Source of the DNA: a virus
Virus record (IMG/VR): IMGVR_UViG_3300034198_012703
Span: 1 to 28,642 of that record
DNA length: 28,642 nt
Reading direction: 5' to 3' (one strand)
Shown one piece after another: positions 1,250 to 25,456 of the stretch (its first letter is position 1; every line of letters starts with the position of its first letter). The position numbers were made by a program, and so were the translations under genes. The notes below the pieces were generated by a model, which was not told where the DNA came from, did no database searches, and saw only the letters and a program-made list of their open reading frames with translations.

Positions 1250-4200
1250 TTATGTATTTACTACGCCATCGGTGTAAGCAAATGTACTTGATCCAATAGA
1301 ATTTATAGTAAAATCTTTTATAAACGTTGCAGGAATAGTATTAGCGGCCACAAATCCACCGTATCCGTATTGAGAAACTGTGTTTCCTGTCATATTTAGA
1401 TAGGAATATTCAAAATTATTGATGATAGTTATATTTGCACTATTTGCCGGAGGTGCAGTGAATACAATATTCCATTGATTTGAAATAGATGTATCTGGAG
1501 CAAAACTCCAATTTTGTACTACATTTCCATTAACTACCATAGTTAAACTGTAAGGATCTACATTAGCTGCAAAAGTTGTAGTTGTGCCGTTACCGGTGTA
1601 GTATATATATTTGTTGGCATAACTCCACGGTATCATTTGGTCCAAGCTACTATTATATACTGTGGCATTTGCTAGGTGTCTTAATGGAACACCAGTACCA
1701 TCAACTCCGCGTCTTATTTGTGTTAATTTTTTATTGACCTGATCAATTCCGTAGTAGGTGATCTTTTCCCCATTGATGAAAACTACCCCAGGTATGGCCT
1801 CATTGACGTTGGGTATTGATAAACCTTGTGTGCTTGTCACTGAAATATTGGAATCTGTGACATTTAAATTGGCAGCTAATTGAGCAGAAAACTGATTGCT
1901 TATTCTAAAATATTCACGTTTGCCATTCATGTTATAGAAACTTCTATAGGCCCAACCGTATGTTTCATCATGAGCATTGAGCGTGATGACTTTTAAATCA
2001 AGAGTATCGTACAATCTACCAGGTATTAATTCTTCAGGAGCATGACTACTATATTGGTCTACGTATGCACCGCCAACAATGTTTATATCTTCTGGGCGTG
2101 TTCCAAGTGCAGTATCTAAATATGAACTTTGTATAATGGTGTCAATATTGGTATTATCAGTTTGGTCTATGTAGGTTATTCTAACATTTGCACCATAAGC
2201 AATTGTGCTAACTGGAGCACCAGTAATCATCATTGAATTTGACGTAACATTAACAATTGTATATTGTGCATTATTTTGGAAATTAGTAATCAACCCTTCA
2301 ACAGTAATGATATTATCAGGAGTAAATCCTAATTTCACAAAATCAATTTGTGTTGTGTCGTTACTGGTAATACACATACCTTGGTAATTGAATCCAATTA
2401 CATTTGATGTAAATTGTAATGTATTTGCATTGAATTTGGCTCCTGTTATTTTAACCCCAGGATATTCAATTCCCAACATCAGCTGTGCGTAATCTTTACC
2501 AGGCATACCAGCAATTGGTTGATAATACGCTGTTATTCTATCAGTAGCCTGTGCAAACACATCTCCACGTAATACAGTATATCGTGCAGGATTGAACACT
2601 GCATCAGTGGCTATATTCGCATTTACCGCTAAGTAAGCAGTTCCAGAATAACTCACAAACGATGAGGTGGCATAGGCAGTATTTGCTTGCCACTGTTGTA
2701 CATTACTAGCAAAGCTGATTCTGTCAAATTTTAATGTAGTTGACAAATTACGCACTGTGTTATAGCTATTTTGCGGAGCAATACTATAGTATTGATTATT
2801 TAATATTGCAGCCCCACTTGCTCCTTCACCTGTACCAGTAATTTTAACTGTAGGTATCGAAGTATATCCAGTGCCAGGATATGTTACAGTAATACCAGAT
2901 ACTTGTCCAGTATCAATGTTGATGGTTGCAATTGCAGTTGCTCCTTTGCCGCCGCCACCTGTAATTGAAACCACCGGAGGTATTAAATATCCTTCGCCTG
3001 GGTTGTCTAATTCAATACTAATAACAGAATAGGTATAATTATTCAGCCAATCTTGATATTCATCTGCAGAACTAATAATACTAGCATCAATGTTATTGTA
3101 GATATTTAATGGACGATACGTATTACTTTGCGGGTCAAAGTATGTAGGTAAATCAAAGTCAGTCATTCTGCCCAGTGCAGTATCAACACTAGAATAGGTA
3201 GGTAAATATTCACGAATTTGTGTTCTAAATGGTTTTACTTCGTTTATATAATCTTGATAATATGTTTGATTATCATTGATATAACTGGGCAATTGCGATA
3301 GTGTTCTTAAATTTTGTGTCACTGTAGCAAAACTGGTTTTAAATACCCAATCCGGGGCAACTTGTTCGGAGAACACATAATTTATCAATACAAAAAATAA
3401 ATTATTAAATTCTATTTTTAAATCATCGATGAAAATATCATTGTATACCGCATCAAAAATATATCCAAGTTCTATAAAGGGATTTTGATCAAATCGTATA
3501 ACACCAAAATTATCATTGTCAAACCCCATGTTGTTATTAGATAAGTCATAAACACTAGGCAATAGTTGTATAGTTCCGTTTTGTACACCAACTAGTTCCA
3601 ATGATAAATCTGTCATTACTCGGTATATTGCCCATGTACCATTTCCGTTATTTGCAACTTTTATAGTATTTCCTGCGGACAACGTCAATAACTTGATGTC
3701 AGCATAAATGTTAACTTGATAGGTTATACTGTTGCTGAGATCAAAGTCTGACATGTACCAATCAGCAAATTTCCAATACAATGATGTATTATAACTTTGT
3801 ATTCTGTTTACTATCCATACGTTAGTAGATTTTACATATTGATATATTACCCATAGTCCACTATTGTTAGCATCACTGTTTACCAATGCCCGTGCACCGT
3901 CATCAAGAGTTGAAGTATTTACGTATGCTAATTCAGAATACATATCAACTGAGAAATCATATGATCCAGGCGGAACTGGCTGACTAGTTTTTAATGTTGT
4001 TATATTGTATTGTAATGCAATAGGGTTCGCTAGCATTACTGCATTGACCTTATCAATGAAATTTTCTACTGCAATTTGTCTATTAATAAACAACCCTTGT
4101 CTTGGTCTAATCAATACTCCGTATCTATCAGCAGGTTTTAATGTTGGGTCTGGAACCAACAATCCTGCAGAATTTTGTCCTGATAAACTGTCTCGTAATT

Positions 4201-7200
4201 TTGTTATTATACGTGACGGGAATACCACATTAGCATCGTGTTCTGCAACCAATTGATATTCGCTATGAATAATATTTGTGTTGGTTAACTTTGATGTGTC
4301 GACATGCAATACAACTTGATTAGATACCAATTGATCATAAATGTTATATAAATTAATTGCATTGGTACTCAGTAGTGCCAAGTAAAGGATTCCTTGACTT
4401 TCAGGAGACCTGATCATGTTTTCTAATTGTATTATACTGATATTTCTACCAGTTGACAATGTAGTATCTACACTAATTTTCTTGCTGACCCAAAAGTAAT
4501 AGGTACTGGTAACAATTCCGCTTGATTGGTTAACCTGTACTACAGAACTGTAAGCGGTATCGTCGGGGTATTTAGGAATACCATCTCCGCCATTGGCGGT
4601 ATACTGACTAGGTAGATAGTTGCTAGATACCCATTCGTAAACTGTTACTACAGATCCCGGAAACAACTTACCCCAATTTTTGCTACGATAAGTTATAGTG
4701 TCTTGCTCGTAATCTATATATCTTATGGTGCTTAAATCCCACCAAGTACGACCAACATGGTGTGCGTTCCAACTTAGTTCAATTTTGTTTACTACATCTG
4801 TACGCAAAGTACTGTTATAGATTGCTGGATCAAATTGCGACTTAATATCAATAAATTGTTCAGCAGCACCAAGTATTTTACCTTTGGCAGGATCCACATG
4901 ATCTAAATGAGTAATCATTTTTTGTGTAACACTATTGTAGATATATGCTGAAGACAAGCTATTGATGTCAACTGAAGTGTCTTGACTACGAATCAATGAC
5001 CAACCTTTGACCCCTGTTGCATTATGTAAAATTTCAACTGTGCCGCCTTGATTTACAACAAATGAATCTTTATCACTACCAACTGCCATGTAATTGGATC
5101 TAACATCCATGCTGGCACCATAATTTATATTTTGAGCTAGGTTAATTGATTCTAACTGTTGCGAGAACGCAAACAACGATGGATTTGTTACCGTGGCCGA
5201 TGGAGTAGACATCAAATCATATGTATAAACTGCTCCGCTGCCAGTAACCGGGTGAGTAAATACTGTAGCTCCACTGTCAAATATTGTTTTTGTACCATCA
5301 AAAGTGTTATCTTGTATGGTAGTGGCCCCACTACTGGAGATTAAAATTGTATCTGCCGTATCAGCCACTGCAAATCCTGTAGCAAACTTTTCTCCGGGTA
5401 CTGTTTGCGTAATTGTTTGTGTATACCCAAATACCTGCAACCCTAGATCTGTAAATGCAGTTCCGTCCCCGGGTGCTAAATCTAACTTTTTATAGTTTGA
5501 TTGCAGTGTGCTATTAATTTGTAGGTACCCATTTGCATTGCTTGCAACCACTCCGAGTATATTTGAATTGTTGATTTTTAATATCACGCTATCAAGTGAG
5601 GAACTATCAAATGATATTACCACACCATTGATTCGTATCCAGTCGCCGGGATTCACCCTAGGATTATAAATAGTGCCTGTTATAGTACCATACACTCTTC
5701 CAGTATTGGTAAATCTAAATACTGCCCCTTCGTTAATGGTATTTTTATATTTAGGAACTGTTGCATATACTGTGCAGTTAACTGGGCAAAGATCTACAAT
5801 TTGTCCAAAGTTATCGTAGGCGTTTGGTGATACGCTGGTTAGATAATTTAATAATCTAAATTTGTTTGTGTCAATGGTTATAGAAGAACCCGGAGTTGGC
5901 GGAATATCAAATTGTACTGCCCCGCTTCGAACTGCATAATCATGCCCTTCAATTTGTGTAATACCATTTAATTCAACATGATGAATAGTTGTCAGTGGAT
6001 CCTTAGTTATAAATATATCGTTTGATCCAGTGCCTGTAAATTTCTCTACACTGCGATCGTAAACAAATATGGCTCCTGCCTGAGTTGCATTGGATACAGT
6101 ATAGTTAGGGGCACCAATAATTAATTGTGTACCGTCAGTTGATGTTTTGATACTGGTTCCAAAATTTGTAAAATGATCTGCAGTCAATACTTGAGATTGT
6201 AGACTATAGTAATCATTTTGATAAAATATGTAAGAGGTACCGTTTTCAATATAAACATTGGCACCTGTTGCAGGTGATGTTAAGAATGTTACAGTACCAG
6301 TGCCGTTAGCGTGGTTGACTACCGTATAGTCGCCTTGCCCTGCTGAAATATTTCCTTGAGTTTTTACTATTCCATTAACACGAATTCTATTAATAGATGA
6401 AATTGTAAATGTTGTGGTAAAGGTCGAAGTTGATCCGCTGGCAGTATTGGTTTGATGATTTTGTGCAGTGATACCAATAAAGTTGATACTATTTGTGCCA
6501 AATGTGTAGTCCATGCCAGGAACCAAAGAAGTAATTCCGCTATAAATTGTAAAATTGCCGCTACTACCGCCTGCAGAAGTTAATGTATTGTTAATGCCTT
6601 GAGTCAATAAATTTGCACTTGTTTCTGTTCCGTACAAATTAAATGATTGGTTAACTGGTGTTTGATTTATTTTAGCATAAGCATACACTTGACCTACCCC
6701 AGGCGAACTGACATATAGCCAGCGACCATCACCACTTATAGACATTCCGGTACCAAATCCAGCATTGCTTAGTGCAACATTAGGTGCAGTTAAAATCTGA
6801 CTTAGACCAATTCCAGAACTTTGTGTTTTGTACACATAAACATATCCTGTGCCGTTGTTGCTAGATGGTGCACTAATAGCAACGTCTAACCCACCAATTT
6901 CAACTCTTTGGCCAAATGATGCCACTGCATTACTCTGCGGTATCAAAGAAGAACCTTCGATCCATGTGTTATCAGCCGAACTACGTTGATTGATTGTGAC
7001 ACGACCTGTTCCGTTGCCCGGAGCACCAACTAACAATGTGGTCGCATCACTGTTAAATTTTACACTGGTGCCAAATTTATCAAAAGTTGTATATTCACTA
7101 CTGTTTAGTGTTACTAATTGTTGGTATGCCCATGGTTTAGTTTTGTTATAAACTTCCCACCCGTTAACACCATCAACCCAAATTTTATCATTGTTGATCC

Positions 7201-10200
7201 AACCATTCAGTGGTGTAAGTTGTGTCACTTGACTTGGGATTGAAATTCTCATGCTAAACAATTTAAATACTACGCCAGTGCCATAGATATTTTTTGCACT
7301 TTGAATAACAGATAAATTTTGATACATCAAAATAAAGAATCCATTTTCGCCGTCGCTGCTGAAAACTTGATAAAACCCATCAAATCTAGAATCAAAGTTT
7401 TTGATTGCAACAATGTCGCCGGGCTGCAGTCCATGTGGGTTTGCAGTAAGAACTTTTACCAAATTGTCGTTGTTGTAACTAAGTTGTAGTATAGAATTGT
7501 TTAACCCTGAGCAGCGGTACACATCCCATCCGCCGTTAAAACTCTTTGCAGTCCATATTTTGTATCCATCTCGTAAGCTGGACATGACTGCATCCAATAC
7601 TGCATAATTTCTTAGATCAAATATGGTTGCATCTATGTCATTCAAATTGACATATCCAGCTTTTGGCAAATCTTGTACTGTTATAGTATCTGATGTTCGT
7701 GCAGCAACGACGTTGACATTATATGTTCCCGAAATTCTGTAAACATCATTGCCGTTGTAACTTTGTATGCTGTCAGATTTTGTTGTGCCTATATCTACAA
7801 ACAAAATTGGAGTAGGACTGGTTTGTATGTTGCCTTCGGGCAAAATTACTTCTATATAAGCATTACTGTCTAGTGCTCCGTACTCGCCAACTCGTATGGC
7901 CCACTCTTCATTGTATGCAATGTTAGATCCAATGGCCCCAAATTGGGCTCCATTTAGTGCATCAACTGCATTTAACGTACCTTTTTGTTTGATAAATCCT
8001 TGATAGAATTTATTTTGAGTTGGAGTATCCATGCCAATGTTGGTTAGATAATCTCTTTCTCTAAATCCTGTGATTCCTTGGCTATATGCCAATATGGTTG
8101 AATCTTCAATTGGGTTGTCTATATCATAGAATTTGGTAAATTTACCAGCATTAATGCTAAAGTTATTGAGCAATCCAGTCTGTATATCTGTCTTGCTGAT
8201 CAATTGCCAATTGGTATTATTAAATGTTACCGCAGCTGGAATATCAGTAACTGCAGTATAGTAATTTGATTTGTATGTTACCAATGCGCCTTTTAGATAA
8301 TCAGTATTGGCATGCCAGTCGGCAATGATATTGTCGTTGTATACAAATCCAGGAATGTTTGGACTTCCGTCCCATGACCCAGTTTTGTTTCCAATCAATT
8401 TCAATCTATATTGTCTATTTCCAGTTTCCGGACTGTAGATAATATCATTGAACACAGTTTGATTATCAAATATAATAGTTTGTTCAAATTGTACCAAATC
8501 TAATTCAGCAAACGCAATTGTTTGCCCGCCAATAGATGTAAAAGTAAATGTATTGGCATCTCTGTTAACAGTGAAATTGTTTGATTTAATAGGTGCAAAA
8601 TTTACATCTATTATTCGTCCTGCATACGGATTATTTGTAATCTCGTCAACTACCGATAAAGCAGTGACTAATTTTAATGTAGTGTACACCGGACTCAATA
8701 CCAATACATTGCCTTGTTGCCAACCTTGTTGAGCCCAACTTAATAGTTCTTTAACACTCAATGTAAAGTCTTGTGTATCAGTTAGATCACTGTTTATTTG
8801 ATTAAAAATAAATCCTTGGCTTTTTAAGTAGCGTTGATAACTAATCAAAAAATCAGCAACTTGTTGTATTGTTTTAAATTCATACCCATAACTGTAACGA
8901 ACTTTAACAGGCCTATAATTTTTGTATAAAATTGCAGTCTCGTTACCTATTTTGATGCTAGAATAACTGTTGTCTACCAAGCTAGGAATAATAGTGAAAT
9001 AAGGATCATTCAAGTTGTATCCGCTTACGCTATACCCGTTGCTGGTTTTTTCTACTATAACCCCACTGTAGGTTACCTTGTTAATAGGCGATGATTTGGA
9101 CAACTCAATTGCATAATTTTCTTTAGGTACAACAATACTATCATTGATACTAGACGGACTGCTTTGTTCTGCAAGTACTGTAATATAATTTTGACCAGTG
9201 TATCCACCTACATGATAGGCCAATTGTACTGACAACCCTTGTAAGGCATTTTTTATATACTTTGCTGAATTGCCAATACCAAGATTGGTCAAATAATCAC
9301 TAACCCAGTTGACATATCCGGCGGTTCTACTAACAGACCCGTTGGCGTTGTTGTATCCATTTACATCAATATCTGTTGGTTGTATGTGCCTATTTGTGAT
9401 ACTATCAATGAATTGATTAATTTCAGCAGAATACTTGTAGTTGTTGATGTTGGCCAAAGTACCAAAATACCTTGCTGGCTTTAGCAGAGCCAGTGCATAT
9501 TGAACTGCGAATGGATAATCGCTACTCCGGCGCCAGGCGTTTTCAGCCGGGCCAATGTCGCCAACTGCCCAACTGATTGCAGCGTTTGTCAAAGATGTTA
9601 TTTTTGTTAGAAATACACTAGGGTCTCTTAAATTTCCTTGGTCATCAACTGGTACAAAATTAACCAGACCCGGACGCTGGAATTTTGCATCAAACCCCGT
9701 GCGTGATCCGCTATAGATATACCCAATACTCAAGTCGCTCCAAAGAATACTGTTGCCAGCGGTGTATGGTGCTGGACCATAACGTGTTTCCCACCAGTCT
9801 GGTTTTTCAGAAAATCCTAACATTTCCCACGGATGTGTATGTGGTCTGTCGGTATCGTAGAAATATTTAAATACTGCTCTCCAAGACCCAGCCATTGATT
9901 GCCCGTTGATAATGTCATTGTATTTTCTGTAGTTCCACGTGAACCCATTGCCATTGAGGAAATCGCCATTGGTAGTATAATCAATTCTACCAGCACCACT
10001 CCATTCCAAAAAGTTTTGTGTTACTATTTGATTAAATTCGGTCAAGTTATATTCTGTTAATCTAAATTTTCCAGGAATATAATCATAAAGATTGAAATTA
10101 TTTTCATTATAACTAATTTTTAAATTGTTATAAATTCTAAGTTCCAATTCCAACAATAATTGATCTCTAAAATCTCCAAACGCTGGAGTTAAGCTACCGT

Positions 10201-13200
10201 CGTGTCCTTGGATAACTTGTGTAGGTGTAACATACGTATTATCAAGATAGATTTGTGGAACAAATTTTGGATACAAACCCAATTTAGTAGGAGTTTCAGG
10301 AATATAATTACCATCAGTACTTGAATACTCTACTATTGAAATAACATCTCCGTATAACAAATTAAAACTATCCAATATGGTTATACTAGGGGTATTTTTG
10401 TTAAATTGATAATCATGATCTTTAACCAATAGTGTTTTTGTAGATTTTTTATCAATAACTCGAGTTAGATATACCAATACTGCCTTACTGCTTAATACTG
10501 TATCATCAAATATACTGGTTAATTCATAATTTCTAATGGTTGGCGTTAGTACTGTATATGATAGAGATGATGTATTATTTTGTCCGTATGGAACCATATC
10601 ACTATAGTACCAAGGGAATGTATTGTTTTTAATTGCATTTATAGTTAATAAAATTTTATCCGTGGCGCTTGCTGGATCATTGTAATCAATTTCTAATTTT
10701 AACGCATTTTCTAAAAAGCGATTCTTAAATTTAGTATATTCTTTTTGAGCCAATCTTAATCCATTGATAAAACTCAAATTTTCATTTACTAAAAATAAAT
10801 TACTATAAATTTGCGGCGCACTATGTTGTAAAATATTACCAGGAGTACTTTTGTAATTTAAATCTCTAAGATTGTTGTTGCCAGGCACTTGCCCAGTTAC
10901 TGCCGTATTGTTTTGGGAAACTGCAATCAAGTGATTGCGTAATTGTCCCAAAGTTAACAATTGGAAATTTGTATTTAGAGAATTTAAATCTAAATTTTTA
11001 GGAACTTCATAATATGAATTTGCACTTATTGCATCACTGAAAATTTGTACGTAAATAGTGTCACCAGTCTGCATCAATAAAGGATTAACTACAACTGCAT
11101 ATCTGTCAACAATTTGTATAATTGCATACTGCCCCAGCGCCAAATTGGTGTTATTGACTACTACTTTTAGATTGGGCTCTAATGTGCTTGGATTAGGTAA
11201 AACTTCTAATTCAAAATAATTATTTGTACCGTCGTAAGTAAATTTTCTTAATTGATATTGTTTGCTTAACGATTCAACTGTGGCCCATAAGTTTACTTTA
11301 CTACCCACAGTAAGTCCATTGTTCTTGATCAATAATCCTGTGTTGATATTCTTGGTGGTAGCCACGGCACCTAATAGATAGGTAAATTTATCAGAATCAT
11401 AATTGTTCTGAAATTGAATATCTCCGATATTATTGATATTTCTATAACTTAATGGAAATCCCAATACAGAATCGTTTCTGCCTGTGCCCTTAAGATAAGA
11501 AAACAACTGAGTACCAACAAATGAACTATTTGTATATACGCTAGTGTCACCAAAGCTGTTGTTATCTGCATCAAGCATATCCAACAAAGGCGGTTGATTG
11601 ATTTTTGATTTTTGTTGTGCTTTTATCCAGCTGGCACCATTATAATAGTATTGTTGTCCAATCTTGTCCCCACCTAAAATAATAGTAGTGTGCCCTGCTT
11701 CAACCAGGGCATCTGGTTCTTCGGTCAGGTAACAAATATAGACTGGATTGGTTACACTTGCAACAGTATTGGCAATTTTAAATCTATAGATTTTATTTTT
11801 TACATTAGGGTTTGTATCTGCAGAAAAAACAATTCTGGTATTATTTTTTAATGTAATAGTTGTATTACCGACTGTTATATCTGCAGATGCTAGCGTTGGA
11901 GTGGATAAACCTTCGACCTGGCTAAATGCATCTGTAATCACAGTATCAAGAATGTTTACTGGATCTTTTGCAAGTTTACCATAATTAAATAATTGTAAAT
12001 CTGCTTCAAATTCAATAATAGGGCGTTGTGCTCTAGCCGATTGGTCAATTATTGGAACTTGATTTAAATAGGCGGCGGTTGCAGTAATTACATCAATATG
12101 CACCCAACGATTGCTGCGACTCCATGCATTTAAATCTTGACTAGCTCTGTTAATAGTTATGTAATCTGCAGTTAATGCACCTGTTATTGTTGAATCAAAG
12201 TTATCAAAATCAAATCCACGCCCAGTGGTATGAGCAGCATCAAAACTAGAAATATATGAATTAATTGTTGCTAACTCGGCTGGATTGTTTGGATTTAAGG
12301 GGATACCATTTTCCCAATGCCATTTTGTCGAATCGGCTAGGTTACCGGGCAATATAGATGCTCTTACATCCGGCGGGGTAATTGCCCAATCATACTGGCT
12401 GGTGCTGCCGCCCATGTCGAATCCAATGTATGTATTGGTATCTGCAAGTTCGGGAGTAATTGTATTTGCAACATTAATTAATCTAATAGCTGTTCCAACA
12501 CCTTCTACATAATATGTGTTTCCTGCATAAGCAGTTGCAGTTGTATTGGCATCAAATGTTATTTTAAGCCCATTAGTCAATGTGACACCATTGGGACTTG
12601 TGTAATAAACTTTTCCCACTATGTCGGTACTGGGGTCAATAAAACTATCTTGTTGATTAGATACTGTGATTGTTCCTGCAGATTGATACTGTCTACTTTG
12701 ATAATAAAGAGATGTCAATGGTGCAGTAATAAGAGGTATTTGCTGATAAAGATTGGTTACAACAACATAAAAACTATATGTAGCATATACAGCACCGGCA
12801 CGAACATAAACTTTATTATTGGGGGAAACTGATGAAACTGGAGTTAATAAAATATGGTCTTCACCATAAGTGTCTTGATAAACATTTATTCTAAATATGC
12901 TGGTTCTCAAGTCAACAGGAACAACCCCAGAAGGATCAAACGCGGTATCAAAAATGTCTGTGTCAAATTCTGCGTTTGAAGTCCAATAATCATCACCGCC
13001 AACTTGGTCAGTGCTGACAAAAATTAAAGTTTTTAAATCCAGTGATCCAGTGAATCCATCGATACCTTTGAATATATTGTTGATGTCGGCTACCGAACGA
13101 CCTTGTAAATCCTTGTATGAAATTGTAGTTGCAAGGTCAGCGGTGCCTGCTTGGGGCATGCTGGTCCATCTTGCCTGGTCTTCACTGTGTGGTACTGTAA

Positions 13201-13909
13201 ATGTTATAGTACCAACATCTATGCCATTGTTTTCTACTCCTAATACCTGTGTGACATCAATATTAAGCCTTAACAGGTCGTAGCCATTTTGACTTGGTTT
13301 TGATTGTATGTAAAAATGATTTCCAGGTTCGTTGATAACAAACTGGTATGTACCACCTTGTGCTAAAATTAAATTTGGATTATTTTCATTGCCGTTGCTG
13401 CTAAATCTCCAACTGCGGCTAGCACTATCAAAAGATACGTTGTAAGTGTATGTTAAAGGAACTCCGCCGGCACGAATTGGCACTGCGTCTGGGCCATTAG
13501 GTAACCAATAATAATTATTAAAATTTACAAACTTATCAAAATCAAAATGACCATCAAACGTATAATATTCATTATTGAACATTCTGTTATGGTCTGTAGT
13601 ATTACCGCCGTAGTAATTGATTTTATTAACTACGTCAGGGTACCCGGAATAAAAGTTTATCTTGTTGGCAGCACTATCTTTAACTATAACATGTGGTTCA
13701 AGTTGATAATTTTGTCTAGTAGCAGTTGGCTCTTTAATATAATTGTCAGTAGATTTGTAACTTGGAGAAAATTCACGTCCAATATATCCATTTACTTTAC
13801 GAAAATCTGGATCAGTTACTAACTGATCCATAGTTGCATTTAAGAATTTCTGATTGGTGTCAGTTCTAAATATTTCTGGTAGAAATTGAATTGTTTTTGT
13901 AACGGCCAT
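1250..13909 (-). CDS. Giant modular baseplate-associated structural protein with FG-GAP-like propeller (gp7 position)
   Basis: A single uninterrupted frame encodes 4,219 aa, about four times the length of T4 gp7, which occupies this position after gp6. Visible modules in order are: an N-terminal domain to about residue 140 with NYYWLPNGPD; a cupredoxin-like segment near 170-240 (GGTYQFVINEPGNHFYI, later GTITFTVP); a long conserved stretch near 1340-1380 rich in Trp/Tyr/Pro (YDTDRPHTHPWEMLGF, PDWWETRYGPAPYT); seven FG-GAP-like blades at about 2267-2975; two Gly-rich repeats at about 3635-3700 (GEGYLIPPVVSITGGGGKGA and GTGYTSIPTVKITGTGEGAS); a segment near 4030-4085 with GVVFINGEKITYYGID and RRGVDGTG; and a fibre-like beta module near 4103-4140. 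These modules recur in T4-like phage structural proteins. The start follows the gp6 stop by 20 bases with no strong ribosome binding site. I infer a baseplate wedge or peripheral adhesin; gp7 homology itself is not demonstrated. Confidence 0.8.
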   Translation of the reverse strand: MAVTKTIQFLPEIFRTDTNQKFLNATMDQLVTDPDFRKVNGYIGREFSPSYKSTDNYIKEPTATRQNYQLEPHVIVKDSAANKINFYSGYPDVVNKINYYGGNTTDHNRMFNNEYYTFDGHFDFDKFVNFNNYYWLPNGPDAVPIRAGGVPLTYTYNVSFDSASRSWRFSSNGNENNPNLILAQGGTYQFVINEPGNHFYIQSKPSQNGYDLLRLNIDVTQVLGVENNGIDVGTITFTVPHSEDQARWTSMPQAGTADLATTISYKDLQGRSVADINNIFKGIDGFTGSLDLKTLIFVSTDQVGGDDYWTSNAEFDTDIFDTAFDPSGVVPVDLRTSIFRINVYQDTYGEDHILLTPVSSVSPNNKVYVRAGAVYATYSFYVVVTNLYQQIPLITAPLTSLYYQSRQYQSAGTITVSNQQDSFIDPSTDIVGKVYYTSPNGVTLTNGLKITFDANTTATAYAGNTYYVEGVGTAIRLINVANTITPELADTNTYIGFDMGGSTSQYDWAITPPDVRASILPGNLADSTKWHWENGIPLNPNNPAELATINSYISSFDAAHTTGRGFDFDNFDSTITGALTADYITINRASQDLNAWSRSNRWVHIDVITATAAYLNQVPIIDQSARAQRPIIEFEADLQLFNYGKLAKDPVNILDTVITDAFSQVEGLSTPTLASADITVGNTTITLKNNTRIVFSADTNPNVKNKIYRFKIANTVASVTNPVYICYLTEEPDALVEAGHTTIILGGDKIGQQYYYNGASWIKAQQKSKINQPPLLDMLDADNNSFGDTSVYTNSSFVGTQLFSYLKGTGRNDSVLGFPLSYRNINNIGDIQFQNNYDSDKFTYLLGAVATTKNINTGLLIKNNGLTVGSKVNLWATVESLSKQYQLRKFTYDGTNNYFELEVLPNPSTLEPNLKVVVNNTNLALGQYAIIQIVDRYAVVVNPLLMQTGDTIYVQIFSDAISANSYYEVPKNLDLNSLNTNFQLLTLGQLRNHLIAVSQNNTAVTGQVPGNNNLRDLNYKSTPGNILQHSAPQIYSNLFLVNENLSFINGLRLAQKEYTKFKNRFLENALKLEIDYNDPASATDKILLTINAIKNNTFPWYYSDMVPYGQNNTSSLSYTVLTPTIRNYELTSIFDDTVLSSKAVLVYLTRVIDKKSTKTLLVKDHDYQFNKNTPSITILDSFNLLYGDVISIVEYSSTDGNYIPETPTKLGLYPKFVPQIYLDNTYVTPTQVIQGHDGSLTPAFGDFRDQLLLELELRIYNNLKISYNENNFNLYDYIPGKFRLTEYNLTEFNQIVTQNFLEWSGAGRIDYTTNGDFLNGNGFTWNYRKYNDIINGQSMAGSWRAVFKYFYDTDRPHTHPWEMLGFSEKPDWWETRYGPAPYTAGNSILWSDLSIGYIYSGSRTGFDAKFQRPGLVNFVPVDDQGNLRDPSVFLTKITSLTNAAISWAVGDIGPAENAWRRSSDYPFAVQYALALLKPARYFGTLANINNYKYSAEINQFIDSITNRHIQPTDIDVNGYNNANGSVSRTAGYVNWVSDYLTNLGIGNSAKYIKNALQGLSVQLAYHVGGYTGQNYITVLAEQSSPSSINDSIVVPKENYAIELSKSSPINKVTYSGVIVEKTSNGYSVSGYNLNDPYFTIIPSLVDNSYSSIKIGNETAILYKNYRPVKVRYSYGYEFKTIQQVADFLISYQRYLKSQGFIFNQINSDLTDTQDFTLSVKELLSWAQQGWQQGNVLVLSPVYTTLKLVTALSVVDEITNNPYAGRIIDVNFAPIKSNNFTVNRDANTFTFTSIGGQTIAFAELDLVQFEQTIIFDNQTVFNDIIYSPETGNRQYRLKLIGNKTGSWDGSPNIPGFVYNDNIIADWHANTDYLKGALVTYKSNYYTAVTDIPAAVTFNNTNWQLISKTDIQTGLLNNFSINAGKFTKFYDIDNPIEDSTILAYSQGITGFRERDYLTNIGMDTPTQNKFYQGFIKQKGTLNAVDALNGAQFGAIGSNIAYNEEWAIRVGEYGALDSNAYIEVILPEGNIQTSPTPILFVDIGTTKSDSIQSYNGNDVYRISGTYNVNVVAARTSDTITVQDLPKAGYVNLNDIDATIFDLRNYAVLDAVMSSLRDGYKIWTAKSFNGGWDVYRCSGLNNSILQLSYNNDNLVKVLTANPHGLQPGDIVAIKNFDSRFDGFYQVFSSDGENGFFILMYQNLSVIQSAKNIYGTGVVFKLFSMRISIPSQVTQLTPLNGWINNDKIWVDGVNGWEVYNKTKPWAYQQLVTLNSSEYTTFDKFGTSVKFNSDATTLLVGAPGNGTGRVTINQRSSADNTWIEGSSLIPQSNAVASFGQRVEIGGLDVAISAPSSNNGTGYVYVYKTQSSGIGLSQILTAPNVALSNAGFGTGMSISGDGRWLYVSSPGVGQVYAYAKINQTPVNQSFNLYGTETSANLLTQGINNTLTSAGGSSGNFTIYSGITSLVPGMDYTFGTNSINFIGITAQNHQTNTASGSTSTFTTTFTISSINRIRVNGIVKTQGNISAGQGDYTVVNHANGTGTVTFLTSPATGANVYIENGTSYIFYQNDYYSLQSQVLTADHFTNFGTSIKTSTDGTQLIIGAPNYTVSNATQAGAIFVYDRSVEKFTGTGSNDIFITKDPLTTIHHVELNGITQIEGHDYAVRSGAVQFDIPPTPGSSITIDTNKFRLLNYLTSVSPNAYDNFGQIVDLCPVNCTVYATVPKYKNTINEGAVFRFTNTGRVYGTITGTIYNPRVNPGDWIRINGVVISFDSSSLDSVILKINNSNILGVVASNANGYLQINSTLQSNYKKLDLAPGDGTAFTDLGLQVFGYTQTITQTVPGEKFATGFAVADTADTILISSSGATTIQDNTFDGTKTIFDSGATVFTHPVTGSGAVYTYDLMSTPSATVTNPSLFAFSQQLESINLAQNINYGASMDVRSNYMAVGSDKDSFVVNQGGTVEILHNATGVKGWSLIRSQDTSVDINSLSSAYIYNSVTQKMITHLDHVDPAKGKILGAAEQFIDIKSQFDPAIYNSTLRTDVVNKIELSWNAHHVGRTWWDLSTIRYIDYEQDTITYRSKNWGKLFPGSVVTVYEWVSSNYLPSQYTANGGDGIPKYPDDTAYSSVVQVNQSSGIVTSTYYFWVSKKISVDTTLSTGRNISIIQLENMIRSPESQGILYLALLSTNAINLYNIYDQLVSNQVVLHVDTSKLTNTNIIHSEYQLVAEHDANVVFPSRIITKLRDSLSGQNSAGLLVPDPTLKPADRYGVLIRPRQGLFINRQIAVENFIDKVNAVMLANPIALQYNITTLKTSQPVPPGSYDFSVDMYSELAYVNTSTLDDGARALVNSDANNSGLWVIYQYVKSTNVWIVNRIQSYNTSLYWKFADWYMSDFDLSNSITYQVNIYADIKLLTLSAGNTIKVANNGNGTWAIYRVMTDLSLELVGVQNGTIQLLPSVYDLSNNNMGFDNDNFGVIRFDQNPFIELGYIFDAVYNDIFIDDLKIEFNNLFFVLINYVFSEQVAPDWVFKTSFATVTQNLRTLSQLPSYINDNQTYYQDYINEVKPFRTQIREYLPTYSSVDTALGRMTDFDLPTYFDPQSNTYRPLNIYNNIDASIISSADEYQDWLNNYTYSVISIELDNPGEGYLIPPVVSITGGGGKGATAIATINIDTGQVSGITVTYPGTGYTSIPTVKITGTGEGASGAAILNNQYYSIAPQNSYNTVRNLSTTLKFDRISFASNVQQWQANTAYATSSFVSYSGTAYLAVNANIATDAVFNPARYTVLRGDVFAQATDRITAYYQPIAGMPGKDYAQLMLGIEYPGVKITGAKFNANTLQFTSNVIGFNYQGMCITSNDTTQIDFVKLGFTPDNIITVEGLITNFQNNAQYTIVNVTSNSMMITGAPVSTIAYGANVRITYIDQTDNTNIDTIIQSSYLDTALGTRPEDINIVGGAYVDQYSSHAPEELIPGRLYDTLDLKVITLNAHDETYGWAYRSFYNMNGKREYFRISNQFSAQLAANLNVTDSNISVTSTQGLSIPNVNEAIPGVVFINGEKITYYGIDQVNKKLTQIRRGVDGTGVPLRHLANATVYNSSLDQMIPWSYANKYIYYTGNGTTTTFAANVDPYSLTMVVNGNVVQNWSFAPDTSISNQWNIVFTAPPANSANITIINNFEYSYLNMTGNTVSQYGYGGFVAANTIPATFIKDFTINSIGSSTFAYTDGVVNT
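4985..7110 (-). other. Seven FG-GAP-like blades (putative beta-propeller domain) inside the giant protein
   Basis: Seven segments share the pattern F/Y-G-x-S/x-h-x-h...D-G-x-x-h-h-h-G/S-A/S-P...G-x-V-x-h-Y. They centre on KFGTSVKFNSDATTLLVGAP, SFGQRVEIGGLDVAISAP, GFGTGMSISGDGRWLYVSSP, NFGTSIKTSTDGTQLIIGAP, NFGQIVDLCPVNCTVYATVP, KFATGFAVADTADTILISSS and NYGASMDVRSNYMAVGSD. Most are followed 10-25 residues later by a closing strand such as GYVYVY, GQVYAY, GAIFVY, GAVFRF, GAVYTY or GTVEIL. FG-GAP repeats form seven-bladed propellers in integrin alpha subunits and in some bacterial surface proteins. Long beta-rich insertions separate blades 3/4, 4/5 and 5/6. Coordinates are approximate. Confidence 0.7.
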
Positions 13910-13929: not shown

Positions 13930-16900
13930 TTATGTATTTAACCCTGCAGCAGATAGGTTGATTTGAGCCGCAGTTATTGCACTGATAATCTCAACATTGT
14001 CAACTGTGGCTGCACTGACAATAATTTCATTTGGCTCAGCATTGACTTGATATAGGCCGCCAAAACTAGCAGCGCCTGCATTGGGCACAATAATAATACT
14101 GGCAATATTTGGGACTAGCACTTGATGCAAGTAGGCCGCCAATTCACTAAAGTAAAAAGTTTCTCCAAAATCCCAATTTGAGATATTGAAATATGTGTTA
14201 ATGGCATTTATAACTGAACTCTTGACATCGTTATCGCTTACAACTATGTTGGGGTTCTTTACTACTTTGAATGTTGCTTGCAATGCTGTATCAGCTTTTG
14301 CACCAAATAATGGTTTAAATGACACAGTATTATAGATGATAGTGTCACTGAGTGCTTTATAATTGGACAATGCTCCGTAATTGGTGCTGAGTTCTTCGCT
14401 GGTTGGTGCAGACGGATTTGATATTTTTCCAGTTGTGTCGGCCAACCAATTAAAATAACTGTTGCTGTAATCTTGTGTTAATACATAAAGATCCATGATA
14501 TTTGTGGGGCTAGGATCTATTCTTCTATTGTTTGGACTTGCATGCGTGTATTGAAAATACAAATTGCTTCTTCCAGTCTGGACTTGATAATTTGTTAACA
14601 ATATTAAATTTGGATCAACAAATTGATAAAAATTATTTTCGGCGTATGCATAAAATATTTGGTTTTGCGGATACAGTCCCAGCACCGAAATTATGTCAGC
14701 ATGTGTAGCATAGGTAGAAATGATAGATCCGTCAGTAACAGGAATTAAACTTATAAAATTAGATGTGTTTGTAGTATCTTGTTTAAAATATACATATTTT
14801 TGTGTCTGGTTTACTGATGGTGCAACCAATTTAGTAAACAGATCAGGATCGTCAGGTATACCAGTTGAATTTGTGTCAGGAAATGATACTAAAATTTTTG
14901 TATTGTCTTCGTATCCATCACTTTCAACAATATTATTGTAAATTGTCCAAATTTGGTCAGATCCCAATGGTACCAAACTGTCTGGCCGAGTATTTGTTTT
15001 TAATACTTTTATTTGGTCATAGATTGTCTGTCCCAACGTAGTGTCGTATACTTTGACTTGTGGATCGAAATAAAATCTTGTTTCTTGAACGCTTTCAAAT
15101 GTGTATGCTAGCCCTCTATAGGTAACAACATACTCTTGATTTATATATTCAAATTTAATAAACCAACTGCTGTCAAGCCCCTGTCCACTTAAATCACCTT
15201 CATTGGCAAGACTGTAATCAGCATCACTCAAATTTGATTGATCTATCAATGCCCAACCTGCAATATCTGTAGTCACTCCGTTTATTTTTATGCCAGTGCT
15301 GTAACGGAATCCAAATTTTTTGTTATAAATCAAGATATTATTTACAATAGTAGAGATAATATCATTACTCCAAGTATTGGTCCAGGCTGGCAATATCTTA
15401 TCAAGTATAGCTCCTGATGGTACAATAGAATTCAAATTTGCTTGTGTATTGTTGTTGTAAGATACACTGGCCCACATTTCTACTCTGTCATTGCTGGTTT
15501 GAGGAGTGCCTGCTATCAACTGATTTTGTGCATTGAAATAGTACCCTGTTGGCGCAAGGAAATGCACCAGTGCCCCAACAGTGATAAATTGGAAGTTGTT
15601 GCTTGCCCCTAACCCGATACTTATTGGATTACTATTTGCATCAACAAAATATCCAACACTGGAATTGGCGCCAAAACTGACCTGTGCCCAACTGTTGACG
15701 CTGCCGTTTAGTGGCACTGGGCGTGTAGCAGTACTGTAGAACAACTGTGTCATTTCCTTTGATTGAATCAAAGGCAAAATTTGATTAATAATGATGGCTG
15801 CCACTTGACTGCTACTGTTGAATTGAAAACTCAATGTATTTGCAGTTGGCGATTCATAAATTATTCCGTCTTCGGCAAATATATTTGTGCTTGAGTATTT
15901 TCCTGTTACATCAATTACATCTAGATATCTGCTAATGCCCGAACTGGTACGATTTACTGTTTTAATTTTTAAAATATCACTAAACATCGTATACGGAAGA
16001 ATATTATAATCTTCACCAGTGATCATACGATTTTGTGTGTAATACTGTTGCGGAGCTTTAGAGCGTATGTCGTTTATACTCTCTCGTGTGCTGGCATTTG
16101 TTACAGTATATTTTAAACTGGCATGTATGGTCAAACTTTGTGTTGCACCCGACGCACTCACATAAGGTATAGTCAATGTGATATTTTGCATTTCGTCAGG
16201 AGTAATTTTGTAATTTAAATTGTTGCCTTGACGGTAGTATAATCGAAAATTTCCTTGTGGCACATTGGTAAACGAACCATCACCAAATATTAGATCAATT
16301 TGATCGTTTGCTCGTGTATTAACCTGGAATAAATTTCTATCTGCAGAATTGTTATAAATGATGTTGAGCCCGCTGATCGCAGGAACTTGTGCCCATTTTA
16401 CGCTATCAGCATTTGATTGATTTAATGCATATAACCAAACATCGGTATTGTTGATGTTATCGAAGTTGATGTTGACAACTCTGTTGGGTAAACTGTCAGC
16501 AATGTTAAATACCTGTGTCTGCAAAGAGCCTTGTGTAAAATACACAAAAAACCCAGTGTTATTACTGCCGTTGCCTAAATTATCATTGAGGTATAAAAAG
16601 TTAAAACCACCGTTTGGAGTAGGGTCAACTTCGTAAACATAACTTTCACCTGCAGTGGTTGCACTCACTGCTTCAAAATTTGTTGTTACACCTTCAACTT
16701 GAGCAGTATACGGTACAACTGGCGTTTGAGTCGATGGTATTCTTATAGTGTATTCATCAGTTCTTACACCATTTAATGTTTGGCTGCCACCAGGTTTGCC
16801 TACCACCTGACTTGAGATCAATGTGGCATTTAACACAGTGATAAACTGTTCTAACCAATTGTCATTGGACGAATCATTCCAGCTGATATTTAAATTGGCC

Positions 16901-17310
16901 AAATTGAGCCCATTGCTGTCGGTAACATTTTCTGTGGTGCTTACAGAATCAAATTTCAAATATCCTGTAGCAGAAATGTTGCGTTTAGGATTATAACTGA
17001 TTAACCTCGCTAGTTTTAAAATACTATCGCGACGATCAGCCGTATCAATGAAATTTTCGCGTGCATTTAAATCTGTGCGAAAAGCTAAACTTTGCCCTAA
17101 AAATGCAATTAAATCAATCAGTGCAATGTATTCGCTACTATCAATAAAATCATTAAAATCTTCAGGATAGTAAGTTTGCAAGTAATTGATCATCGACTTG
17201 CGTAGTGTTTCGAAGTCGTAACTCCGAAAATCAGCTTCTCTAAAAGTCTGATATATTTTAGTCCAGTCTTGCTGAACCAATAAACTGGTTTGACGTGTTG
17301 TTAATGCCAT
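13930..17310 (-). CDS. 6: Baseplate wedge protein gp6 (gpJ/baseplate J-like), enlarged
   Basis: The 1,126-aa product matches the T4 gp6/baseplate J family at both ends. The N-terminal part has YYPEDFNDFIDSSEYIALID, then the helix LGQSLAFRTDLNARENFIDT and the R-x-S-I-L-K-L-A-R-L-I-S-Y-N-P segment. The C-terminal part has NTYFNISNWDFGETFYFSEL, the usual fold end of this family. gp6 forms the ring that ties wedges together in the baseplate. T4 gp6 is about 660 aa, so roughly 450 extra residues lie between the conserved ends. I chose the ATG at 17310: a TTG at 17316 would add two residues, but the ATG is preceded by ATATGGAT and by a GATAAATA late-promoter-like box at fixed spacing. It follows gp25, as in T4, and precedes the giant gp7-position gene. 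Confidence 0.93.
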   Translation of the reverse strand: MALTTRQTSLLVQQDWTKIYQTFREADFRSYDFETLRKSMINYLQTYYPEDFNDFIDSSEYIALIDLIAFLGQSLAFRTDLNARENFIDTADRRDSILKLARLISYNPKRNISATGYLKFDSVSTTENVTDSNGLNLANLNISWNDSSNDNWLEQFITVLNATLISSQVVGKPGGSQTLNGVRTDEYTIRIPSTQTPVVPYTAQVEGVTTNFEAVSATTAGESYVYEVDPTPNGGFNFLYLNDNLGNGSNNTGFFVYFTQGSLQTQVFNIADSLPNRVVNINFDNINNTDVWLYALNQSNADSVKWAQVPAISGLNIIYNNSADRNLFQVNTRANDQIDLIFGDGSFTNVPQGNFRLYYRQGNNLNYKITPDEMQNITLTIPYVSASGATQSLTIHASLKYTVTNASTRESINDIRSKAPQQYYTQNRMITGEDYNILPYTMFSDILKIKTVNRTSSGISRYLDVIDVTGKYSSTNIFAEDGIIYESPTANTLSFQFNSSSQVAAIIINQILPLIQSKEMTQLFYSTATRPVPLNGSVNSWAQVSFGANSSVGYFVDANSNPISIGLGASNNFQFITVGALVHFLAPTGYYFNAQNQLIAGTPQTSNDRVEMWASVSYNNNTQANLNSIVPSGAILDKILPAWTNTWSNDIISTIVNNILIYNKKFGFRYSTGIKINGVTTDIAGWALIDQSNLSDADYSLANEGDLSGQGLDSSWFIKFEYINQEYVVTYRGLAYTFESVQETRFYFDPQVKVYDTTLGQTIYDQIKVLKTNTRPDSLVPLGSDQIWTIYNNIVESDGYEDNTKILVSFPDTNSTGIPDDPDLFTKLVAPSVNQTQKYVYFKQDTTNTSNFISLIPVTDGSIISTYATHADIISVLGLYPQNQIFYAYAENNFYQFVDPNLILLTNYQVQTGRSNLYFQYTHASPNNRRIDPSPTNIMDLYVLTQDYSNSYFNWLADTTGKISNPSAPTSEELSTNYGALSNYKALSDTIIYNTVSFKPLFGAKADTALQATFKVVKNPNIVVSDNDVKSSVINAINTYFNISNWDFGETFYFSELAAYLHQVLVPNIASIIIVPNAGAASFGGLYQVNAEPNEIIVSAATVDNVEIISAITAAQINLSAAGLNT

Positions 17311-17330
17311 AGACAAATATCCATATTAGA

Positions 17331-17358: not shown

Positions 17359-17736
17359 TTAAGATGTAGTTAGCGTATTGCTATTGTTGTTAAAAGTCAA
17401 CTTTATGCTCTGGCTTTGATCTCTTGGAATATATGTAAGATCAATCTGCAGTTGAATACCTATATCCAATTGGTCTACAGTGACTTTGGTAACTCTAACC
17501 CTGGGATCGTAGGAAATAATAGTAGACACATCATCTATAATTGCCGATTTGGTAGATTCTGTTAAGGGTTCAAAAATCATATCCCATATTATGGTGCCAA
17601 AATTTGGCTGCATTAGCTTTTCGCCTTTGCGTATGCTGAAGTGATTGATAAGATCGCATTTAACTAACTCAAAATTAGTTACTCTAAATTTTTTATATCT
17701 ATCTACTGTACTGAATCCGCGATATGTTATTGCCAT
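17359..17736 (-). CDS. 25: Baseplate wedge protein gp25 (GPW/gp25 family)
   Basis: The 125-aa product carries the gp25 hallmarks. Residues 36-58 contain RKGEKLMQPNFGT followed by IFEPL, and DPR at 77-79 stands where the family has its conserved E/D-P-R motif. Length is close to T4 gp25 (132 aa). gp25 is the small core wedge subunit that joins gp6 and gp53 and has a fold related to TssE of type VI secretion. An AGGAT ribosome binding site lies about 11 bases before the ATG. The gene sits 16 bases after the 509-aa gene and directly before gp6, the same gp25-gp6 order found in many contractile-tail clusters. Confidence 0.95.
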   Translation of the reverse strand: MAITYRGFSTVDRYKKFRVTNFELVKCDLINHFSIRKGEKLMQPNFGTIIWDMIFEPLTESTKSAIIDDVSTIISYDPRVRVTKVTVDQLDIGIQLQIDLTYIPRDQSQSIKLTFNNNSNTLTTS

Positions 17737-17752
17737 ACTATTACTTATCCTG

Positions 17753-19282
17753 TTAAACTCCTGTTAAACTAACACCCACAACACCAAGTTTGTTTGCTAC
17801 TACAGAAGCAGTTTGGCCACCAAGTAATGCAGTTGCAGGAGATGCTATAGCAGTTGCACTTGCCAACAGTTGACTACTCACACCATTAACTGCTTGCCCG
17901 GCTGTAGCTGCAAGTGACGAAGACAAATTTGATACTCCTGTTAACGATGCAGCTGCTGATGTTGCAGATGATAAGGCCGCACCAGCCGACCCTAATAACG
18001 ATGTAGCTGCCGATGTTGCAGATGATAAGGCTGCACCAGCTGACCCTAATATACCATCTGACAACGGATTTGGTATTTTGCTGGTATCCAAAGACGGAAG
18101 ACTAGGCAACACTGATGGAAATGTTGGAGGATTAAATGTACTTGGCGACGATAATGCAGCCTGTACACCATTAACTGATGCATTTGCTAATGCTATAGCA
18201 GGCGATATGCCTTTGCTTTTGGCATCAGCAATAATCTGTGCTTTTTGATCTGGAGTTATTTTGGGAGCAGGTGAACTGGTGTCGGTACTTGACCCAATTG
18301 GCAATGCCACTCCAGCGGCCAAGGCCCTTGCTAGCACTGTTGAAGGGTTAATAGACAATGATTTTATATTTGGCAATACTTTTCCTAGTGCAGATGCAGC
18401 CATACTAACATCTGCAAATGCATTTGCTTTTGCTCCAAATGCCGCACCTGCAGCCGATGCTAGACCGCTGATATTAGTAGCTCCAGCAGCTAGTCCAGCA
18501 GTTAATGCTGATGTAGCACTAGCGGATACTGCTGATGCAGCATTAAATGCACTAGTTAAACCAGAAGGGATTGCACTAGTTATTCCAGACGTTAATGATT
18601 GTGCACTGAGTGAACTTCCACTGGGTACACTGGGCAAGTTTGATAGCTTGCTTGCTAATCCTGCAGCACTTGTTGCCAAAGAATTAACTCCAGAAATTAT
18701 ACTTGCTGATGACAATGGGCTAGTTGTTGAAAGCCCAGGTATGCTGGGTAAATTAGGCAATCCTGCCGTTAATGATGCAGCCGATGGCAAGCCAGGCAAG
18801 CTAGGCAAGCCAGGCAAGCTAGGCAATCCTGCCGTTAATGATGCCACCGATGGCAACAGCGAATTAACAGAAGCTTTCAGAGAAGCAGCGGCACTGGCTG
18901 CAGTTGCACTGGCTGCATCGCTGGCAGCGGCTACATCACTTAATTTTTCAGGTTTTATTTTTTCACTTGATAATTGTTGCAGATCTAATCTAGCAATACT
19001 GGGTAAAGCAAATGTTGGCAAACTACCGCTAGATGCCTCCGCAGTTGATGTTCCAGTACCTGCTATACCGGGCAAATTTATTCCATTTGTTATGGCAGAT
19101 GCTACTGCCGATGCAGGGTCTTGCCCTAAAGCAATGGCGCTGGCTTTTACTGCTTTGAGTTGGTCCAAGCTGAGGCCACCACCTAGTCCGTTGCCAGCAC
19201 TAGCAATTGCAGCTGATACCCCACCACTGACCATAGATACTTGCGACTGCAGTTGACTACTAAGCTGATCATAAACTCCCAT
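17753..19282 (-). CDS. Low-complexity Ala/Ser/Leu/Pro-rich protein, probable virion component
   Basis: I do not recognise a family. The 509-aa product is dominated by Ala, Ser, Leu, Gly and Pro, with almost no Cys, Trp or His. It has internal repeats: LPSLPG units near residues 150-170, two 18-residue copies of GSAGAALSSATSAA-type sequence near the C-terminus, and two related helices (DQLKAVKASAIALGQDPASA and DQKAQIIADAKSKGISPAIA), each followed by an Ala-rich A-x-x-N-G segment. There is no clear signal peptide. An AGGA ribosome binding site lies seven bases before the ATG. Position between spike and gp25 genes suggests a tail or baseplate component, perhaps a flexible linker, tape-like or tip protein. 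The style resembles the disordered C-terminus of the neighbouring gp5-like spike. Confidence 0.7.
   Translation of the reverse strand: MGVYDQLSSQLQSQVSMVSGGVSAAIASAGNGLGGGLSLDQLKAVKASAIALGQDPASAVASAITNGINLPGIAGTGTSTAEASSGSLPTFALPSIARLDLQQLSSEKIKPEKLSDVAAASDAASATAASAAASLKASVNSLLPSVASLTAGLPSLPGLPSLPGLPSAASLTAGLPNLPSIPGLSTTSPLSSASIISGVNSLATSAAGLASKLSNLPSVPSGSSLSAQSLTSGITSAIPSGLTSAFNAASAVSASATSALTAGLAAGATNISGLASAAGAAFGAKANAFADVSMAASALGKVLPNIKSLSINPSTVLARALAAGVALPIGSSTDTSSPAPKITPDQKAQIIADAKSKGISPAIALANASVNGVQAALSSPSTFNPPTFPSVLPSLPSLDTSKIPNPLSDGILGSAGAALSSATSAATSLLGSAGAALSSATSAAASLTGVSNLSSSLAATAGQAVNGVSSQLLASATAIASPATALLGGQTASVVANKLGVVGVSLTGV
17946..18053 (-). repeat. 54-bp tandem repeat, two copies, in the 509-aa gene
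   Basis: Copy one is 17946-17999 and copy two is 18000-18053. They differ at only a few positions, mostly third codon bases, and encode two 18-residue GSAGAALSSATSAA-type units. The repeat is in frame, so copy-number change would shorten or lengthen the protein without a frameshift. Confidence 0.9.
18754..18856 (-). repeat. Nested direct repeats: outer 36-bp pair around an 18-bp tandem
   Basis: A segment beginning taggcaatcctgccgttaat occurs at 18754-18789 and again at 18820-18856. Between them, an 18-bp unit (gccaggcaagctaggcaa) is perfectly repeated at 18791-18808 and 18809-18826. On the minus strand the 18-bp unit encodes a six-residue LPSLPG-type repeat. Because all lengths are multiples of three, recombination between copies keeps the frame. 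Confidence 0.9.
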
Positions 19283-25153: not shown

Positions 25154-25456
25154 TTACAGCCCCAGGTCAGAAGTCAGTGTGTCTTTCTTGGGTATATAAA
25201 TTCTAACACCAGCTCGAAAGTCAAACAATGGATCTTTTAACACATTGGGATTGCGTTGTGCAAATACCCACCACAGCGAACTATCGCCGTATAAATCGTA
25301 ACTCAACATGTCAGGCCGAAATTGATACACATTGTCAATTTCGTACAACACATCATCTGGCAACGCAGTGATTGGCCTATCAGTCATCACATCTAAAAAT
25401 TGCCCAAACAAACTTGTAGTATAGTATGGACTTGTTTTGCTATAAGTCTCTGCCAT
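25154..25456 (-). CDS. 53: Baseplate wedge protein gp53-like (LysM-like)
   Basis: The 100-aa product contains the compact gp53/LysM-like pattern: YYTTSLFGQFLDV near residue 11, FRPDMLSYDLYGDSSLWWVF at 47-65, RNPNVLKDPLFDFRAG and a closing IYIPKK. Residue spacing between YGD, WW and the final IYIP strand is typical of the phage baseplate family that includes T4 gp53 (196 aa), here in a shorter form. gp53 clamps wedges onto the hub. The ATG overlaps the stop of the preceding gene as TAATG, and an AAAGGA ribosome binding site lies eight bases upstream, inside that gene. This indicates translational coupling with the tube-cap-like protein. Confidence 0.85.
   Translation of the reverse strand: MAETYSKTSPYYTTSLFGQFLDVMTDRPITALPDDVLYEIDNVYQFRPDMLSYDLYGDSSLWWVFAQRNPNVLKDPLFDFRAGVRIYIPKKDTLTSDLGL

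Follow-up and report, generated by a model that had tools for sequence, protein, structure and literature searches.

A removable FG-GAP_2-type cassette, predicted to form a seven-bladed propeller, in a giant baseplate-locus protein of uncultured phages

What does a run of seven FG-GAP-type segments build within a giant phage protein, and what might such a domain do there? The question is raised by a 28,642-base record of an uncultured jumbo-type phage, IMGVR_UViG_3300034198_012703, which was analyzed over its whole length and is termed here the window. An initial annotation had read seven FG-GAP-like segments in a 4,219-amino-acid protein, and proposed that they form an integrin-type propeller within a phage baseplate cluster. 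The genes that define this setting are as follows.

1250..13909, minus strand: giant virion-protein gene of the phrog_10938 family, 4,219 amino acids, containing the propeller
13930..17316, minus strand: gp6-type baseplate wedge subunit (phrog_10646, E 3.1e-289)
17359..17736, minus strand: gp25-type baseplate wedge subunit (phrog_261/phrog_43)
19773..21815, minus strand: gp5-type baseplate hub/tail lysozyme protein (phrog_13211, E 5e-46)
25154..25456, minus strand: gp53-type baseplate wedge subunit (phrog_7145, E 5e-25)

The proposed baseplate setting is borne out by these PHROG matches: a T4-like cluster of gp53-, gp5-, gp25- and gp6-type genes precedes the giant ORF, all in the same direction. 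The giant protein matches phrog_10938 ("virion structural protein"; E=0, 1140 bits), and its membership in this family is evident from homology across the protein body and from the gp25-gp6-giant gene order. E. coli phage 121Q gp582 and PA5oct gp355 belong to the same family and are homologous to it along most of their length. PA5oct and 121Q are annotated with the same gene order, as is Atu_ph07, although gp25 has no name there. The PA5oct homologue carries the label "ESI-MS/MS," and thus was found in virions according to its annotation. The family counts at least 598 confirmed IMG/VR stretches.

By gene order only, the giant protein occupies a T4 gp7-like position; homology to T4 gp7 was rejected, as hhalign detected no sequence similarity between the two (probability 0.2% or less). 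VrlC, a large baseplate protein of pelagimyophages and cyanomyophages, has been proposed as a T4 gp7 replacement, and YHYH domains have been reported in its structural region (PMC7029224). The giant protein resembles VrlC in being a large baseplate-region protein with YHYH domains in the region, but profile comparison with VrlC of HTVC008M detected no sequence similarity (hhalign probability ~0.1%), and homology was again rejected.

The region annotated initially (4985-7110, minus strand) corresponds to residues 2267-2975 of the giant protein. Seven consecutive FG-GAP-type blades lie on the minus strand at residues ~2257-2976, with segments that start at about residues 2276, 2330, 2382, 2582, 2700, 2840 and 2928. 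The parts of the propeller and its socket are listed in protein order.

7142..7222, minus strand: N-terminal socket flank (..KIWVD..GWEVYNK), residues 2230-2256; kept in propeller-less PA5oct, Atu_ph07 and L106
5006..7141, minus strand: propeller cassette, residues 2257-2968; the part absent from empty-site relatives (compared with PA5oct and L106)
7100..7135, minus strand: N-terminal strand WAYQQLVTL in the AF2 model; equivalent to a strand 4 and a candidate to close blade 7
6938..7084, minus strand: blade 1, residues 2276-2324; Pfam FG-GAP_2 20.3 bits, hhalign 97.5%
6779..6922, minus strand: blade 2, residues 2330-2377; Pfam FG-GAP E 0.0012, hhalign 96.7%
6668..6766, minus strand: blade 3, strands 1-3, residues 2382-2414; hhalign 98.2%
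6212..6667, minus strand: blade 3 insertion between strands 3 and 4, residues 2415-2566; mostly pLDDT <50
6179..6211, minus strand: blade 3, strand 4, residues 2567-2577; AF2 model
6050..6166, minus strand: blade 4, strands 1-3, residues 2582-2620; Pfam FG-GAP_2 E 0.0075, hhalign 95.2%
5864..6049, minus strand: blade 4 insertion, a small beta module, residues 2621-2682; weak DUF2460 match, pLDDT ~81-90
5828..5863, minus strand: blade 4, strand 4, residues 2683-2694; AF2 model
5699..5812, minus strand: blade 5, strands 1-3, residues 2700-2737; hhalign 95.2%, alone without an FG-GAP Pfam match
5438..5698, minus strand: blade 5 insertion, an alpha/beta module, residues 2738-2824; AF2 model
5402..5437, minus strand: blade 5, strand 4, residues 2825-2836; AF2 model
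5144..5392, minus strand: blade 6, with a conserved TFD..TTF loop (5243-5326), residues 2840-2922; hhalign 89.3%
4982..5128, minus strand: blade 7, residues 2928-2976; hhalign 97.0%
4790..5005, minus strand: C-terminal socket flank (GWSLIRSQ..VD..DPAKGKILG..), residues 2969-3040; kept in propeller-less relatives

With Pfam FG-GAP_2 (PF14312; curated cut-off 23 bits), the complete protein scores 26.8 bits and the segment 41.8 bits, with three matched stretches. All 30 aligned relatives match the same model (best E 1.6e-24). In single-blade Pfam searches, FG-GAP was matched by blades 1, 2 and 4 only, blade 3 gave a weak match to other propeller families, and blades 5-7 matched no FG-GAP or propeller model. 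Because single-sequence HMMs thus fell short of five blades, a more sensitive held-out test was run, in which a long-clade profile for each blade position was compared with compact-clade blades of the other six positions by using hhalign. Blades 1-7 were all recovered, with probabilities of 89-98%, and eight control stretches from the insertions and flanks scored 0.1-13%. As the held-out templates are themselves members of this protein family, the result speaks for repeat identity and not for an independent family assignment. The assignment to FG-GAP rests instead on the Pfam matches and on a profile search of the PDB, which placed integrin alpha chains first (E 8.6e-6; 1.5e-7 with the compact clade).

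A blade HMM scored 61.0 bits on the window protein, compared with a maximum of 8.1 among 300 shuffles. Searching for the Cage motif with a regular expression, a weak test for blades, gave six hits in the window, one of them spurious (shuffle mean 0.77, maximum 5); the true hits fall in blades 1-5, and blades 6-7 are missed. The existence of seven FG-GAP-type segments in series is therefore confirmed by the FG-GAP_2 score above cut-off and the held-out profiles, although matching of at least five segments was reached by the profiles (seven of seven) and not by single-sequence Pfam searches (three to four of seven). The closing G-x-V-x-x-Y strand that the annotation had described is clear for most blades but weak for blade 7.

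Integrin-type propellers also occur in bacteria, and several of their blades have a DxDxDG calcium loop that joins strand 1 to strand 2 (PMC3192720). The window propeller contains no DxDxDG loop, and the string appears anywhere in the propeller region of only seven of 103 propeller-bearing relatives. Blades 6-7 have degenerate motifs and have lost the GAP motif. Because of these two features, the domain is classed as an FG-GAP_2-type propeller and not as a strict integrin domain. The earlier description as an integrin-type propeller thus holds for the seven FG-GAP blades and for the fold and profile matches, but not for the calcium loops or the regularity of the last two blades.

An AF2 model of residues 2180-3080 of the window protein, made with 30 alignment rows, has a mean pLDDT of 69.5 and a pTM of 0.70. 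Its blades mostly have pLDDT values of ~80-95; confidence drops in the first insertion and at both ends. The model of an insertion-poor (compact) relative, L020, reaches a mean pLDDT of 77.8 and a pTM of 0.78. In Foldseek searches of the PDB, integrin alpha propellers rank at the top for both models (E 1.6e-10 for the window, 6.3e-13 for L020). TM-scores normalized by target are 0.60 for the window and 0.61-0.64 for the compact relative, against closed integrin propeller chains of ~450 residues. When normalized by query the scores are low (0.3-0.5), as insertions and flanks form part of the query. Seven consecutive four-strand antiparallel blades are found by the held-out hhalign comparison together with the AF2 strand order, and the integrin-type seven-blade fold that had been anticipated is predicted by AF2 and Foldseek. 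Ring closure and the face of the insertions were judged by strand order, model confidence and Foldseek scores. By these measures the ring is predicted to close in the real protein, and the strand WAYQQLVTL may pair with blade 7.

Insertions of about 152, 62 and 87 amino acids follow the cores of blades 3, 4 and 5. The initial annotation had placed them, as beta-rich modules, between blades 3/4, 4/5 and 5/6. These modules are real and separate, but the AF2 model puts each of them within a blade (3, 4 or 5), after strand 3 and before strand 4. When the 4/5 insertion was used as a profile, it matched a second copy in the C-terminal half of the 3/4 insertion (E 1.5e-8). Two relatives match Flagellin_IN, perhaps at the blade 5 insertion. 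Connections at the first two insertion sites are much shorter in the L020 clade, and L105 has none of the large insertions; seven uninterrupted blades are found in both.

In standard propeller topology, loops 1-2 and 3-4 lie on one face and loops 2-3 and 4-1 on the other. Because all three insertions occupy strand 3-4 loops, they are predicted to project from a single face, as had been proposed; this would be the calcium-loop side of integrins, opposite the integrin ligand face. It follows that presenting insertions and binding in the manner of an integrin are different hypotheses for this domain. The TFD..TTF loop of blade 6, whose D and T residues are invariant in alignment A2, lies between strands 2 and 3, and therefore would be on the face opposite the large insertions.

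Comparison of relatives indicates that a conserved socket of the phrog_10938 giant protein holds the propeller as a removable cassette, which is a new observation. In PA5oct and 121Q, the stretch bounded by the conserved flanks, which end in VD..DPxxGxIPG, contains no propeller, and the same is true of all six cultured homologues examined, these two included. Tblastn searches of 50,697 phage records matched only the C-terminal flank or nothing, and no direct DNA or protein match of the propeller itself was obtained in sequenced phages. The propeller is present in 103 of the 118 records that have both anchors, in a non-random sample that includes duplicates; because relatives were selected by similarity to the window, such frequencies are not representative. 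Presence was called with a blade HMM and a whole-propeller HMM together, because the blade HMM alone missed one relative (L102) that scores 635 bits with the latter.

The site is short and empty in L106 and L139. In L101 and L109, a YHYH domain is found at the propeller site between the same socket motifs (Pfam E 6e-31 and 4e-29). Members of a sister group have GDSL-hydrolase domains inserted upstream and a short unrelated sequence at the propeller site. Such a GDSL-type domain was detected in three propeller-less relatives (L115 with 41.5 bits in Pfam, L121 and L129 by motif), and is possibly an envelope-modifying enzyme of the tail. In Atu_ph07, the propeller site of the giant protein is occupied by many repeats resembling PGxGY..P.V.

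A quick tree of 96 rows, in which some cultured rows sit on long branches, was built from the conserved region upstream of the propeller. Propeller presence requires four changes on this tree, forced by well-supported branches, compared with a mean of 14.3 when shuffled. The simplest reading is that the propeller was gained once, at the base of an environmental clade of 90 rows (SH-aLRT 100), and was lost or replaced three times, with the empty L106 and the YHYH replacement among these events. L105, with its complete propeller, and the empty L106 are sisters with 99% SH-aLRT.

What, then, is the function of the cassette? Our preferred explanation, which we consider probable, is that a closed FG-GAP_2 propeller in a fixed socket serves as a putative peripheral adhesin head. 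The conserved flanks would anchor the base of the propeller in the baseplate region, and its exposed faces would attach to the host surface, the ligand probably being a glycan or an outer-membrane structure. The receptor or glycan binding suggested initially would fit this reading. In the lineage of the window, blades 3, 4 and 5 may have acquired small beta modules in their strand 3-4 hairpins, where these would gather on one face and create a larger exposed surface. Adaptation to hosts could then proceed through rapid change of the domain and its insertions, and through loss or replacement of the whole head.

Several observations speak for a putative host-binding head. The propeller region has lower conservation and is richer in insertions than its flanks. 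This faster change, coupled with the fold class, the modular loss or replacement and the phage precedents described below, makes putative host binding the best inference. The weak CBM5/12-like stretches of the same protein, described below, also count in its favor. That the domain can be absent argues against a purely structural role. Three points weigh against the adhesin reading: the T4 gp7-like position is a matter of gene order, the first insertion has low model confidence and blades 6-7 are degenerate, and a beta-propeller can also serve solely as an assembly platform.

This last point leads to the main alternative, which we regard as rather unlikely, that the propeller is an architectural platform that docks fiber or wedge subunits without host contact, its insertions touching neighboring virion proteins. 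The gene adjoins gp6, the socket flanks are conserved, and many propellers act as protein-protein scaffolds. However, L106, L139, PA5oct and 121Q lack the propeller completely yet retain the remainder of the protein, and the unrelated YHYH domain can take the place of the propeller, which is unlike a core docking platform. It is improbable that the domain is a carbohydrate-active enzyme or an envelope-degrading domain and not a binder. Carbohydrate-active enzymes are often propellers, and GDSL-hydrolase domains are inserted elsewhere in some propeller-less relatives, but the matches obtained here are to FG-GAP/integrin-type proteins, a binding family, and not to glycosidase families. That separate, non-circular beta domains merely resemble FG-GAP repeats is hardly credible: few blades match Pfam singly and three large insertions break the repeat, but held-out profiles recover every blade, relatives (the L020 clade and L105) carry them uninterrupted, and the top matches of both models are closed integrin propellers.

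The adhesin-head explanation finds precedents among known systems. Propellers in phage baseplates are already known. The receptor-binding protein Gp45 of Staphylococcus phage phi11 has a five-bladed propeller with a GlcNAc-sized pocket, and PhiKZ gp131C has a seven-bladed domain at the baseplate periphery (PMC4901313). Like the present domain, both are beta-propellers of baseplate-associated proteins, with host binding known or suspected. However, the phi11 domain has five blades, the gp131C propeller is the C-terminal domain of another protein, and neither is described in PMC4901313 as FG-GAP-type or as a socketed cassette of a wedge-locus protein.

FG-GAP-like proteins of phages and giant viruses are likewise known, among them a stand-alone propeller-like protein with Pfam FG-GAP in Mantoniella virus MntV1 (PMC11467894). 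By Foldseek, cyanophage S-TIM5 H6WG31 and Atu_ph07 A0A2L0UZX4 share the fold class, but are separate phage proteins of ~400 amino acids and not insertions in a giant protein. The latter (BFVD, 393 amino acids, annotated "hemagglutinin") stands alone and is propeller-like, and the giant protein of Atu_ph07 has no propeller; the small protein could represent the same head in detached form.

The closest fold and profile matches in the PDB remain the integrin alpha propellers that form the head of animal integrins, which also have seven FG-GAP blades of four strands each and can hold extra domains within the ring, such as the integrin I domain. The I domain sits between blades 2 and 3, whereas the insertions here occupy strand 3-4 hairpins of blades 3-5. 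The window domain further differs in its missing DxDxDG motifs, the lost GAP of blades 6-7, its FG-GAP_2 subtype and its location within a 4,219-amino-acid phage protein. Our literature search found no relevant paper that joins FG-GAP with phage tails or baseplates, and no description of this exchange site or of a giant wedge-locus protein that contains an FG-GAP propeller.

More tentatively, we propose that the wedge-locus socket of jumbo-type phages may accept exchangeable host-recognition heads (propeller, YHYH, others or none), and that the propeller insertions are integrin-style but of independent origin and on the opposite face. If so, host range would be set by whole-head swaps in a baseplate-region protein and not only at fiber tips. 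In these uncultured phages, a large and widespread family, the FG-GAP repeat type appears to build an entire propeller. A single site that exists in empty, propeller-bearing and YHYH-bearing forms offers a natural experiment in how contractile-tail phages gain and lose non-fiber binding heads. Residues ~2225-3045 delimit a bounded domain for expression and testing.

Other features of the giant protein and its surroundings were also observed. Tandem PGxGY..P.V repeats at residues 3626-3741 produce a misleading match to phrog_460 ("head closure Hc2"); identification as a neck protein was rejected, as the match reflects common GxGY repeats. Two CBM5/12-like (chitin-binding type 3) stretches, at window positions 8252-8317 (minus strand) and residues 3739-3770, are weak (23.0 bits, under the Pfam cut-off of 26.2); the PA5oct and Atu_ph07 relatives also have such stretches. 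In four relatives (L085, L087, L088 and L092), the giant protein reaches ~5,900-6,000 amino acids, ~1,700 more than that of the window. Between the gp25- and gp5-type genes, positions 17753..19282 (minus strand) encode a 509-amino-acid protein that has a high Ala, Ser, Leu and Pro content and no PHROG match. Divergent from the baseplate cluster is a late sigma factor gene (26423..27280, plus strand; phrog_12791), followed downstream by an ORF of 296 amino acids (27270..28160) and a cut-off ORF at 28192. In PA5oct, the late sigma factor gene at the equivalent position adjoins an SbcD-like gene.
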